Positions 1-4,821 of a stretch of 64,000 bases of DNA are shown here, piece by piece. Numbering within the stretch: position 1 is the first letter of the stretch; every line of letters starts with the position of its first letter. Position numbers and translations under genes: made by a program. Where the stretch lies: contig NZ_BBMB01000009.1 in assembly GCF_000971235.1 (NCBI RefSeq), forward strand, positions 1 to 64,000. The letters are read 5' to 3'. Below the pieces are notes generated by a model. It made no database searches, was not told where the DNA came from, and was given only the letters and a program-made list of their open reading frames with translations. The DNA is from Demequina subtropica. GTDB lineage: Bacteria > Actinomycetota > Actinomycetes > Actinomycetales > Demequinaceae.

Positions 1-107
1 AAGGAGGCTCCTGCGCAGAAAGGACCATCGTGACGATCCATGTGGAGAGAGGCCGCCGGCCCGCGTGTCGGCGAAGCCGCCTGCTAGGCCGGTGGGAGAG
101 TCGCCCC

Positions 108-905
108 GTGATTACGCGACTTCGTGCAGTAACGCTTGCCGCCATCGCCGGCGCAGTCCTCCCACTCACGGCCTGCATGCCCGCCGAGCTCGGTCTCGGC
201 GCCGCACCTGAAACATCACAGACCGCGACCGCGTCCGACGCTGCGGTCACGGTGGCCGTGTCCGAGGCTGTCACGATCGCTGCTGTCGGGGAGTGGCCCG
301 CCGACCAGGAGGGTTACGTGTTCTCTGTGGAGCCGCAGGGTGGTGCTGAGGAGTGGCTGGCGCAGGAGTGGCCGGAGTTGTGGGAGATCGGTGTGAGGTC
401 GATCGTGATGGCTCCGGGGACGAAGTATCCCGAGTACGAGTACCCCCAGATCCTCGTACGGTATATCGACGGTGTGCGCTACGAGGGCACCGAGGAGGCC
501 CCCCTGGGGCTCACCCAGGGTGACGACGTCCCCGGTGAGGTCATGTACGTGTTCGGCGACATGGCTGGTATGGCCGCCGTCGAGCATGGCGAGGGAAAGT
601 ACCGCGTCGTGCTGTTCCCCTCCGGGAAGGACAAGGACCTCTTCCGCATCGAGATCCGCCGTTCTGGACAGGTCAACACGGTCTTGTCGTACGCGGGGCT
701 CGGGTACGGCGAGTACCACACGTACGCGTCTACCGAGGAGGCTCTGGCGGATATCCGTGACGGAATCCCTGTTGGCGACGGCCGCGTCCTGGATCCCGCC
801 GAACTGTCCTCGATCCGGTTCGAGAACTACCAGAACTCTGGCACTGACTACGCCGTTGACGTGCGCACTTGGGACGTCGTCCCTGTGTTCGACCTGACAG
901 GCTGA
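108..905 (+). CDS. Lipoprotein of unknown function
   Basis: The predicted product of about 265 residues begins with a short signal peptide ending in a lipobox (LPLTAC), so it should be exported and lipid-anchored. I chose the GTG at 108 because GGAGAG lies 9 bases upstream and it leaves a normal signal peptide; a GTG at 30 also has an AAAGGA upstream but would add a 26-residue Arg-rich extension. The mature part is acidic and shows no motif I recognise. Its base composition looks less GC-rich than genes after 5 kb, and it sits on the integrase side of tRNA-Phe, so it is probably cargo of the integrated element. The function is unknown. Confidence 0.75.
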   Translation: MITRLRAVTLAAIAGAVLPLTACMPAELGLGAAPETSQTATASDAAVTVAVSEAVTIAAVGEWPADQEGYVFSVEPQGGAEEWLAQEWPELWEIGVRSIVMAPGTKYPEYEYPQILVRYIDGVRYEGTEEAPLGLTQGDDVPGEVMYVFGDMAGMAAVEHGEGKYRVVLFPSGKDKDLFRIEIRRSGQVNTVLSYAGLGYGEYHTYASTEEALADIRDGIPVGDGRVLDPAELSSIRFENYQNSGTDYAVDVRTWDVVPVFDLTG

Positions 906-985
906 AACCTCTTCTCGCGCTACTGTCGGGCAAACTTTTTCGCTGGTGTGGATACCCTTCGGCTGAACTGTTGAAGGGAGGCGAG

Positions 986-1075
986 ATGCCTAAGGTTCCT
1001 GCGGGCAAGATCGCCTGCCGAGACAAGGAGCTGTGCCGCGGCGCGGCATGGCATGAGCCGCCTCGCAGGACCTGA
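986..1075 (+). CDS. Possible small 29-residue protein
   Basis: A 29-codon frame has a good AAGGGAGG ribosome site 5 bases before its ATG and a TANNNT-like box (TACCCT) about 30 bases upstream, which suggests it could be expressed. The peptide is basic and contains two cysteines; I recognise no family. It lies in the otherwise geneless stretch 906-1220 between the lipoprotein and an IS remnant. It could equally be a decayed fragment. Confidence 0.3.
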   Translation: MPKVPAGKIACRDKELCRGAAWHEPPRRT

Positions 1076-1220
1076 CCGCATTCGAAGTCGCGCAGCGCGG
1101 CTGCCACAGGATTGCCGGATCATCAGGCGGCCGCCCTCCTCGAAGTGAGCCCTCCGACACAAACCCCGTCGCAGCCGCCCGGCCGACCCGCAAGGGCCCG
1201 GGGAGCCTGACCCGCTTCCG

Positions 1221-1461
1221 TGGACACCTGATCTGAGGCGATGATCGTCTTGGAAGGGAGTTCCACGAATGCCCGCACCGAAGTCGCCGGAGTTCCTGCG
1301 TCGAGCATTGGACCTCGTCGCGCAGGGTGAACCTGTCGCGGCGACCGCCCGCAATCTCGGGATCAGCGAGTCGTGTCTGCGTCGTTGGATGGCTCAGGAC
1401 GAGATCGACCGTGGCGACCGTGAAGGCCTGACCAGCGCTGAGAAGCGTGAGCTGGTCGAGC
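1221..1461 (+). mobile_element. Truncated IS3-type element, left end only
   Basis: A TGGACACCTG-type terminus at about 1221 is followed by the start of an IS3-style orfA at 1269. The element stops where a second IS begins at 1462. No continuation of it is visible beyond 2765, so the right part is deleted rather than merely interrupted. The exact left boundary is inferred. Confidence 0.5.
1269..1461 (+). pseudogene. Truncated IS3-family transposase OrfA
   Basis: The first 64 codons encode a typical IS3 OrfA helix-turn-helix (residues about 5-45, with ARNLGISESCLRRW) that recognises IS ends. An AAGGGAG ribosome site precedes the ATG. At codon 65 the frame runs into the terminal repeat of the next IS, so the leucine zipper and the link to OrfB are lost. 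It cannot make a working transposase. Confidence 0.75.
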
Positions 1462-1485
1462 TGAATCGGCCTGAGTTTCGTTCCG
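1462..1485. repeat. IS3 left terminal inverted repeat
   Basis: This 24-bp end (TGAATCGGCC...) is the exact reverse complement of 2742-2765 and marks one boundary of the element. Confidence 0.9.
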
Positions 1486-1486
1486 C

Positions 1487-2410
1487 TCAGTTTCTTTGTC
1501 CGACAGACGCCACTTGGGCGGCTGCGAGGTCAGCGTAGTACTCGGCTTCGACCTCCTCGGGAGTGCGCATGCCGAGTTCGCCATGGAGTCGCTGGTTGTT
1601 CCACCACCACACGTACTCGAGGGTCGCGAGCTCGACCTGCTCGACGGTCCGCCACGGGCCGCGCTGGCGGATCAGCTCGGTCTTGTAGAGGTTGTTGATC
1701 GCCTCGGCGAGCGCGTTGTCGTATGAGTCGCCCACGGTTCCCGTCGACGGCTTCGCGCCGAGCTCGACGACGCGGTCGGTGTAGACCATCGCCATGTAGT
1801 TCGACCCGTGGTCCGAGTGGTGCGTCAGCCCGCTGAGGTCTCCACCGGCGTCCCACGCCGCCATGTCGAGCGCCTGCAACGGCAGGATCTCTGCCTTGAG
1901 CGTCGACGCGACGTTCCAGCCCACGATCCTGCGTGAGAAGACGTCGGTGACGAACGCGACGTAAGCGAAGCCAGACCACGTCGCGACGTACGTGATGTCA
2001 GCCACCCACAACTGTCGTGGCCCTGGCGCATGGAAGTGGCGCTTCACCAGGTCCTTCGGCATCACGGCCTTCGGGTCGGACTTCGTGGTGAAGACCCGCT
2101 TGGACTTCTTCACCCCGCGCACGCCGGCGAGCCGCATGAGCCGCTCGGTCTGATCCCGCCCGATGTCCCAGCCCTGGCGGCGCATCAGTGCGTGCATCTT
2201 CCGACGGCCATAGACGCCGTAGTTCTCCGCGTGCAGGCGAGCGACCTCGGGAACGAGCAGGTCGTCGCGCAGCGCACGAGCGGACGGCGTCCTGCTCTTC
2301 GCGGCACGGTAGCCGCGAGAGGTGAGGAATCCCTGGACTGCTGGGCGCAGGACCCGGCAGATGGGCTCGACCCCGAAACGATCCTTGTGCTCGTCGATGA
2401 AGCGGATCAT
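1487..2410 (-). CDS. IS3-family transposase OrfB (DDE integrase)
   Basis: The OrfB part has the HTH_21 region and an rve integrase core with the DDE residues visible in VADITYV, HHSDHGSNY and the Glu of NALAEAIN. It catalyses strand transfer of the IS. The open frame continues upstream to 2581, overlapping orfA in the -1 frame, so the active protein is normally an OrfAB frameshift fusion. The coordinates given start at the first internal ATG (2410), just after the orfA stop. I could not point to a canonical slippery heptamer. Confidence 0.85.
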   Translation of the reverse strand: MIRFIDEHKDRFGVEPICRVLRPAVQGFLTSRGYRAAKSRTPSARALRDDLLVPEVARLHAENYGVYGRRKMHALMRRQGWDIGRDQTERLMRLAGVRGVKKSKRVFTTKSDPKAVMPKDLVKRHFHAPGPRQLWVADITYVATWSGFAYVAFVTDVFSRRIVGWNVASTLKAEILPLQALDMAAWDAGGDLSGLTHHSDHGSNYMAMVYTDRVVELGAKPSTGTVGDSYDNALAEAINNLYKTELIRQRGPWRTVEQVELATLEYVWWWNNQRLHGELGMRTPEEVEAEYYADLAAAQVASVGQRN

Positions 2411-2415
2411 CTCGG

Positions 2416-2718
2416 TCAGGGGCGGTCGAGCTCCTTCGCGAAGAACACGCTCGCAGCCTTGAGGATCTCGTTGGCCTTGCGCAGTTCGGCGTTCTCGCGC
2501 TTGAGGCGCTTGATCTCCGCCGCGGCCTCGCTGACGCCTCCGACCTTGCCGCCCGCGTTGGCCTCCATCTGGCGATGCCACAGGCGAAGCGTCTCGGGAC
2601 TCATCCCGAGCATCCCGGCCACGTGCCGCGTCGCATTGGTCAAGTTCGGGTGATCCGGCAACGCTTCGGCGAGCATCCTCAGGGCGCGCTCACGCATTTC
2701 CGGGGTGTAACGAGTCAT
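2416..2718 (-). CDS. IS3-family transposase OrfA
   Basis: The 100-residue product has the HTH_Tnp_1 fold (residues about 1-50, starting MTRYTPEMRERALRML) and a C-terminal leucine-zipper-like helix that binds the terminal repeats and dimerises. AAGGA lies 8 bases before the ATG at 2718. The frame overlaps the extended orfB frame by -1, the usual arrangement for making OrfAB. Confidence 0.85.
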   Translation of the reverse strand: MTRYTPEMRERALRMLAEALPDHPNLTNATRHVAGMLGMSPETLRLWHRQMEANAGGKVGGVSEAAAEIKRLKRENAELRKANEILKAASVFFAKELDRP

Positions 2719-2741
2719 GGGTTCCATCCTTGTCGATAGGA

Positions 2742-2765
2742 CGGAACGAAACTCAGGCCGATTCA
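2742..2765. repeat. IS3 right terminal inverted repeat
   Basis: This 24-bp end (...GGCCGATTCA) pairs exactly with 1462-1485. It lies just upstream of orfA. Confidence 0.9.
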
Positions 2766-2837
2766 CATCTCTGCCTTTCTGAAGGACCACAAATCTGTAG
2801 CGTGTGCCTGAAGGTAGCACAAGCGCCTAACATCTAG

Positions 2838-2843
2838 TAGCCT
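2838..2843 (+). promoter_or_regulatory. Leaderless -10 box for the XRE regulator
   Basis: TAGCCT ends 6 bases before the ATG at 2850. No ribosome site is present, which fits leaderless transcription. Confidence 0.45.
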
Positions 2844-2849
2844 GTGGGC

Positions 2850-3518
2850 ATGGAGATCCTGAGCTACTCCGAAGCGGTGGGCCGCTTCGTGCGTGAATAC
2901 CGACACGCACACGGGTTGACGATGGATGCGGTTGCAAGAGCGGGTCATAGTTTTGGGGCGACTTGGAGCCTCTCGAGCATCCAGAGCATCGAGGCGGGCA
3001 AGGCATCGCCGACAGTGCCGACCCTCCTCACGCTCGCACTCGCGCTCGGTTCGTTGACGGGTGAGCCGCTCAAGCTGACGGACCTCTTCGGAGCCGCTGA
3101 GGCCTTGGCGCATCCCATGCTCGGAACCGACTCGGTGCCACGCGAGTGGGTTGAGCGAGCGCTCGGAGGGGATCCTGTCCTGCCTCCGGGGCGCGAGACT
3201 CGTGCGGCTGAGGCGGCTGAGGCGGCTGAGGCGGCGGGGCGAACGCGGGCCTTTCCTTTCCTGGACGTGGAGAGGATCACGTATGGGGAACTTGCCCAAC
3301 TCTCCAGCCCGGCCGTGAGCCAGGCCGAGTACCGTGCGGGTCGGCAGCTTGGAGTGCAACCCGGGCGTGTGCAGGAAGTGGCCCGGGCGCTGTGGGGCAG
3401 GTCGCTCGATGACGAATCTGCTCGTCGCGCTGGAGAAGGAGCTTCGCCTCAGAAGCGTGGCAGGGCGACCCGGCGCCTTCTTGAGGAGCTTGGTGCGGCG
3501 CTTGAGGGTGAGGCCTGA
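2850..3518 (+). CDS. XRE-type HTH protein of an integrative element
   Basis: The N-terminal 60 residues form a Cro/C1-type helix-turn-helix (LTMDAVARAG ... LSSIQSIEAG). The C-terminal part is basic and may contain a second DNA-binding segment. A 9-bp triplication near 3209 encodes an AEAAEAAEAA linker. The ATG at 2850 suits the leaderless box; a GTG at 2844 is also in frame. The stop codon abuts the integrase start, so the pair is an operon, and the protein probably controls integration or excision of the element. The exact role is inferred. Confidence 0.7.
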   Translation: MEILSYSEAVGRFVREYRHAHGLTMDAVARAGHSFGATWSLSSIQSIEAGKASPTVPTLLTLALALGSLTGEPLKLTDLFGAAEALAHPMLGTDSVPREWVERALGGDPVLPPGRETRAAEAAEAAEAAGRTRAFPFLDVERITYGELAQLSSPAVSQAEYRAGRQLGVQPGRVQEVARALWGRSLDDESARRAGEGASPQKRGRATRRLLEELGAALEGEA

Positions 3519-4670
3519 GTGGCGCGTCCTCGTACTCAGATCGGCACGTACGGCACGATCAGCACCATTCAGGTCGGCGATGGGAAATGGCGGTCTCGCG
3601 CCCGCTACAGGTTCCCCGACGGGAAGTCTCGTCAGGTGGAGCGCTTTGCGCCAAGCCGCGCGAAAGCCGAGGCTGCGCTGCGCAGCGCCCTCCTCACGAT
3701 TGACGTCGAGCGCGGCGGCGGTCTGAAGTCCTCGACGAGCTTGCGCGAGTTGGGCGCGATGTTCCTGCAGGCGAAGCGCGAGGCGGGCCGCGCGGAAGGC
3801 ACGCTTGAGACCTATGGCTACGCGGTAAACGCGCACATCGTCACCAGCCTCGGTGATCTCTCCGTGGCGGAAGCGAAGCCCGAGCGGCTGCAGTGATTCC
3901 TAAGCCGGGTGGAGCGAGAGTCCGGGCACGGCGCAGCCAAGAACTGCAAGTCGTCGCTCTCGGGCATGCTCGGCCTCGCGGTGCGCAACGGCGCCATCGC
4001 GGCGAATCCCGTCAGGGAGATGGAGCGCATCTCTCGGCCGAAGGGCGCGAAGAAGGGGAGCAAGGCAATTCCGCTCGACGAGCTGCCCGCGTTCATGGAT
4101 AGGGTTCGTGCCGACGTTGAACTGCAGCGAAGCGACACCGTCGAGTTGGTGGAGTTCATGCTGGCATCTGGCTGGCGAGTGGCGGAGGTCTGCGCGCTCG
4201 ATGTCTCATCGGTCGACTTCGCGGCCGGCACGGCATGCATCGATGCCATCAGCGTCCGAGTCGCTGGCAAGGGCATGGTCAGGCAATCGCATGCGAAGAC
4301 CGAGAAGTCTGCTCGCACCACCAAGCTGCCTCAGGCGACGATGGACCTCCTGGCACGTCGTCACGAGCGCCTGGGGGAGTACACATCGCTGCTCTTCCCG
4401 ACTCCCCTGATGCGGATGCGCGACCCAGGGAATGTTCAGCGCGCGATCCGGGAGCGACGGGGCGAGCTCGGCTACTCCGACCTGTCTACGCACTCGTTCC
4501 GCAAGACCTGCGCCACGATCCTCGACAGGGCAGGCCTGTCTGCAACCGAGATCGCCGACTACCTCGGCCACGAGAACCCATCCCTCACTCAGGACGTCTA
4601 CATGAACACCGTCAAGGGCTCGACCCGGGCCGCGGAGATCACGTCCGAGCGCCTCGCTGGCCTCATCTGA
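3519..4670 (+). pseudogene. Tyrosine integrase interrupted by a TGA codon
   Basis: Two pieces in the same frame, 3519-3893 and 3897-4670, read as one phage-type integrase if the TGA at 3894-3896 is ignored. The arm-binding and core-binding domains lie before about residue 170. The catalytic domain shows R (SGWRVAEV), HxxR (HSFRKT), GHE (LGHENP) and the nucleophile Y (DVYMNT). Related integrases read RLQRFL at this point, so TGA is most simply a CGA-to-TGA transition. The gene starts with GTG directly after the XRE stop and ends 79 bp from the 3' end of tRNA-Phe, its probable attachment target. It is inactive unless the stop is read through. Confidence 0.85.
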
Positions 4671-4710: not shown

Positions 4711-4746
4711 AAAAAAAGCGAAAAGCCCCTGCCTTAGCAGGGGCTT
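4711..4746. terminator. Bidirectional terminator between integrase and tRNA-Phe
   Basis: A 10-bp stem (AAGCCCCTGC / GCAGGGGCTT) with a 4-base loop is followed on the minus strand by a T-rich tract. It should end the tRNA operon, and probably integrase transcripts too. Confidence 0.8.
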
Positions 4747-4748
4747 CG

Positions 4749-4821
4749 TGGCTCCGACGGGCGTCGATCCCGTGACCTCACGATTTTCAGTCGTGCGCTC
4801 TACCAACTGAGCTACAGAGCC
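4749..4821 (-). tRNA. tRNA-Phe (GAA)
   Basis: A 73-nt cloverleaf folds with acceptor GGCTCTG/CGGAGCC (one G-T pair) and anticodon loop CTGAAAA on a CACGA/TCGTG stem. CCA is not encoded. Its 3' end faces the integrase, which makes it the likely attachment site of the element to the left. Confidence 0.95.

Follow-up and report, generated by a model that had tools for sequence, protein, structure and literature searches.

A tyrosine integrase gene beside tRNA-Phe in Demequina subtropica is interrupted by one in-frame TGA codon

In the IntA integrase of the Salmonella prophage ST64B, a protein of about 407 residues, residue 165 corresponds to an in-frame TGA. Full-length IntA is reported to be made by read-through, as judged by Western blot and in vitro recombination, and relatives to carry either Arg or the stop at the TGA position (PMC12455584). 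In the PRF elements of Oenococcus oeni, the integrase gene of a phage remnant is broken into two ORFs, and a frameshift is suspected (PMC8074189). Both systems resemble a locus that we identified in Demequina subtropica. Like ST64B IntA, the Demequina protein is a tyrosine integrase whose frame is broken by a single TGA ahead of an intact catalytic domain. It differs from IntA as reported in that relatives vary at the column of the stop, none of those found carries a stop there, and the stop lies at position 126 rather than 165 (each in its own numbering). Like the PRF integrase genes, it is broken into two ORFs, but the break is a nonsense codon.

More broadly, the gene resembles the tyrosine integrases of phages and islands that integrate into tRNA genes (PHROG 1; Pfam accession PF00589 with PF22022/PF14659). 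It shares their domain order and catalytic residues, and its locus shares the att core in a tRNA 3′ end and an adjoining repressor-like gene. Unlike integrases of this class, it has a TGA in its core-binding domain. Unlike tRNA-integrating phages and islands, the visible part of its island contains insertion sequences and no recognised phage structural gene.

The window analysed here covers the opening 64 kb of contig C15 from a 23-contig draft genome of 3.08 Mb. The contig begins at window base 1, and the features considered below are as follows.

30 to 905, + strand: lipoprotein-like ORF with a putative signal peptide (by eye)
1269 to 1480, + strand: truncated transposase orfA-like fragment (by eye), cut by the insertion sequence
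1462 to 2765, − strand: IS3-family insertion sequence with perfect 24-bp terminal inverted repeats
2844 to 3518, + strand: HTH repressor-like gene, its TGA end directly before the integrase start
3519 to 4670, + strand: interrupted tyrosine integrase gene, its GTG start abutting the upstream gene's stop
3894 to 3896, + strand: in-frame TGA (codon 126) within the core-binding (SAM-like/Phage_int_M) domain
3909 to 4670, + strand: in-frame 253-aa ORF past the stop, from the ORF list, with a GTG start; catalytic domain without the N-terminal part
4722 to 4747, − strand: terminator-like hairpin between the integrase and tRNA-Phe, on the element side of the att core (one found against a mean of 1.2 in shuffled sequences, weak when taken alone)
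4748 to 4783, + strand: 36-bp att core bordering the island on its tRNA side and formed by the tRNA-Phe 3′ end, with an exact repeat at C17:185681-185716
4748 to 4821, − strand: tRNA-Phe (gaa), the integration target, clustered with tRNA-Asp and tRNA-Glu

Apart from the TGA at codon 126, the integrase frame is open throughout, and both halves lie in a single frame as originally predicted. With X at the stop, the protein matches PHROG 1 ‘integrase’ (E 7.5e-51), and its 383 residues align end to end with seven full-length relatives at 60–70% identity. This alignment implies that the frame is not open merely by chance. Past the stop, the sequence matches PF00589 (E 2.7e-20). Residues R220, K260, H325, R328, H351 and Y361, which we take to be the catalytic set (R-K-H-R-H-Y) of the tyrosine integrase family, all fall in columns that are invariant in eight of eight sequences (the integrase itself and the seven relatives), in agreement with the earlier claim that the catalytic residues are all kept. 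Codon 126 is spanned by Phage_int_M (residues 85–168) and Phage_int_SAM_3 (residues 80–129), both of which score below the Pfam cut-off in the interrupted integrase; Phage_int_M falls just under it here and above it in relatives L036, L038 and L041. The nearest solved relatives by sequence are the integrase chain 3nkh and the Int chains 6emy, 6en0 and 6emz (E 2e-7 to 2e-6), from a search that returned four distinct sequences at E ≤ 1e-5. Because of the TGA at codon 126, we class the gene as an interrupted integrase and not as a working member of the family.

The original prediction held that a conserved Arg codon (CGA) had been turned into TGA. This is not borne out by the relatives. Among 18 readable homolog rows, the codon-126 column contains Lys (six rows), Arg (six), Pro (two), Ala (two) and Gln (two), with CGA in a single row, the 33% identical relative L010. 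The seven distinct full-length proteins with at least 60% identity have Lys in four cases, Pro in two and Arg in one, with CGA in none. (Identical protein pairs among the rows are L039/L040 and L037/L097.) A nineteenth row, L099, is out of frame at this column and was left out of the count; read from residue 22, it has Lys there and is 95% identical to L098. In the alignment of eight sequences, the flanking R-L-Q and F are invariant and position 126 itself varies. No stop occupies this column in any of the 18 rows, and recurrence of the stop at the same site was not seen. The relatives do not reveal the original codon at 126.

Two observations bear on the extent of the island. The exact 36 bp of the tRNA 3′ end occur at both ends, on two contigs, the C17 copy sitting 1.1 kb from that contig's end. 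The same-genus genomes G006 and G008 show the empty site: in them tRNA-Phe adjoins the C17-side flank, which comprises a hairpin and, beyond it, the end of the gene that also lies there on C17 (hydrolase-like by eye). Because of this empty site, we infer that the two att ends bound one element across the two contigs. The last 1.1 kb of C17 and the first 4.7 kb of C15 would then be opposite ends of a single insertion or of stacked insertions. The sequence between them is unassembled, and the island is at least about 5.8 kb long. In an attempt to bridge the two contigs, no second near copy of window positions 1–2843 or of the C17 tail was found in the genome. In the draft assembly, neither an empty attB nor a circular junction is present on any contig.

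The visible island holds two different IS3-family transposase genes, one per contig and 36% identical to each other, together with the lipoprotein-like ORF and the repressor–integrase pair. The ORF at 30–905 has no Pfam or NCBIfam match, and no second copy of the IS3-family element at 1462–2765 was found in the genome. None of the few visible ORFs looks, by appearance, like a resistance gene. The island also seems to carry its own terminator-like hairpin (4722–4747) next to tRNA-Phe, substituting for the one that stayed behind on the side of C17.

We identified 10 related loci in named genomes, including Cryobacterium, Diaminobutyricibacter, Microbacterium and Brevibacterium, by a scan for short peptide patterns, so that the numbers of intact and ruined copies below are copies found and not a census. 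The integrase match adjoins tRNA-Phe in all 10, and likewise in same-genus copies in G027 and G041. Six of the named loci are full length (aligned over residues 1–383). The other four are C-terminal pieces (residues 245–383, 308–383, 350–383 or 334–383) and have enough upstream sequence to have housed the remainder. Among 396 genomes of the order, 10 have a match at E ≤ 1e-60. Eight of these matches lack an internal stop, one of which (L099, in G374) shifts frame near residue 21, and two have one (G000 and G027). A genus-wide listing gives internal stops in the matches of 3 of 44 genomes (G000, G027 and G023). The G027 copy has an insertion sequence in place of its N-terminal part, contains one TGA and one TAG, and has lost the catalytic Arg and Tyr. 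The G041 copy consists of frameshifted pieces.

All six named full-length loci (L036–L041) have a repressor homolog ahead of the integrase, as do L097–L099 and, in part, L096. Five neighbouring genes divergent from these repressor–integrase pairs were scanned. Those of L036, L037 and L038 match D5/DUF5906-type replication families above the Pfam cut-off, that of L041 matches Rep_OBD just below it (24.1 vs 24.6 bits), and that of L039 has no match. By these sequence matches, the tRNA-Phe integrase family may represent small replicating islands or phage satellites. A PADLOC scan of ten neighbours in relatives gave matches only on one ABC-transporter ATPase, which we take to be generic.

The age of the lesion was approached through the terminal branch of the interrupted gene. 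The ratio of change at codon positions 1+2 over position 3 is 0.052, within the 0.031–0.057 of seven close relatives and compared with 0.269 and 0.093 in two distant outgroup rows. This value suggests that constraint lasted through most of the branch, in a test that is weak, with saturated third positions and node support of 30–52 around the interrupted gene. As a test for relaxed selection, this comparison with the seven close relatives gave no clear signal. The interrupted gene is changed at 17 of 187 otherwise invariant sites, the most of the set, versus 1–12 per relative in the seven relatives. These changes could reflect some relaxation and a lesion older than thought, but the gene is also the most isolated member of the close set, with the longest branch. 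Only the TGA is broken, and there is no clear sign of long decay; on balance, the break would be recent or the codon occasionally read.

We consider it likely that this gene served as the integrase for a small mobile island inserted in the tRNA-Phe 3′ end, was intact until recently, and was inactivated when a single nonsense mutation struck the core-binding domain. Held in the chromosome since then, the island would have gathered insertion sequences and be entering a decay that has gone further in related genomes at this tRNA gene. This reading is based on the stop within the frame, the repeated att core, the empty site of two relatives, the homologous regulator–integrase pairs beside tRNA-Phe and the decayed copies elsewhere. 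No active integrase would be made, and the island would be unable to excise. That the element is fixed unless the stop is read through or another integrase acts, as first proposed, still holds as a reading. A genome search for a second close integrase found none; the only other matches are 33% and 24% identical over the C-terminal half (E 3.4e-5 and 1.5e-4). Matches were found in 1167 phage records and 48 plasmid records, all below 60% identity, and these collections thus hold no near-identical free element. In viral contigs, scanned for close relatives only, a single candidate stretch was not confirmed. The event is most likely real but ordinary, a recently interrupted integrase of a tRNA-Phe island. 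It offers a snapshot of a mobile island getting stuck, through one nonsense codon with the catalytic domain intact, at a tRNA-Phe site that in relatives harbours full-length as well as ruined copies.

Counting against inactivation is that nothing apart from the TGA is degraded. Low-level read-through could supply scarce full-length integrase, with the stop as a brake on that supply. The remainder of the gene is intact and apparently constrained, and relatives carry Lys, Arg, Pro, Ala or Gln at position 126, so that an inserted residue would probably be tolerated and a read-through product could well be functional. We regard such read-through as unlikely here, even with the precedent reported for ST64B IntA (PMC12455584). 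None of the 18 homolog rows shares the stop, and the stops in G027 lie elsewhere. The base after the TGA is T, which is an efficient termination context in E. coli, and the RNA fold past the stop is unremarkable (z −1.62; 14 of 200 shuffles equally stable). TGA is also a normal stop here, ending both the upstream HTH gene and the integrase itself. A search for tRNA-Sec in the genome gave 10 sub-threshold matches, of which the best three proved on inspection to be tRNA-Ser, tRNA-Gly and tRNA-Trp(CCA), and none over the Rfam cut-off; as a control, the search gave matches in 14 of 14 control genomes, above the cut-off in 5. With no tRNA-Sec over the cut-off and TGA ending both genes, we rejected selenocysteine or global TGA recoding. 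A stop maintained as a brake, with integrase made only by occasional read-through as in ST64B IntA, is by the same analogy decidedly unlikely. If true, it would broaden stop-codon control of integrases to include a high-GC actinobacterial island and a different region of the protein, and read-through of any kind, if shown, would add a further case of such control.

A sequence artefact would account for the same single-codon event. An assembly or base-calling error, or a polymorphism in the culture, might hide a true gene that is intact, and the otherwise intact frame and a position 3.9 kb from a contig end in a 23-contig draft fit such an error. The assembly has a listed completeness of 100% and contamination of 0.01%, and decay of integrases at the tRNA-Phe site is common, which together make an artefact improbable. 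Least plausible, with hardly any chance of being correct, is a split integrase in which residues 1–125 and a C-terminal fragment reinitiated from the GTG at 3909 act together. The C-terminal ORF does begin 12 nt past the TGA and keeps all catalytic residues. The break, however, falls inside the core-binding domain and not at a domain border, no Shine-Dalgarno sequence is seen by eye before the GTG, and none of the 18 homolog rows is split at the same place.

Copies of the tRNA-Phe 3′ end also occur in series in other genomes. We identified five in tandem within about 18 kb at G029:C4:1160031-1178195 (L117), several on short contigs in G021 and two in G004. Judging by these repeats, insertions seem to stack at the tRNA-Phe site, as at a hot spot. 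A lipoprotein-like gene on C17 (L002:904-1455) lies just outside the distal att site and has no counterpart at that spot in G006, whose matched flanking pieces are 54 bp apart. Adjoining the ruined integrase in G027 is a 12-kb att-bounded stretch (L115, G027:C3:591500-606500) that encodes a sugar ABC transporter, an FGGY kinase and a sugar-binding protein. This stretch also contains an insertion sequence, whose transposase is 91% identical to that of the window.
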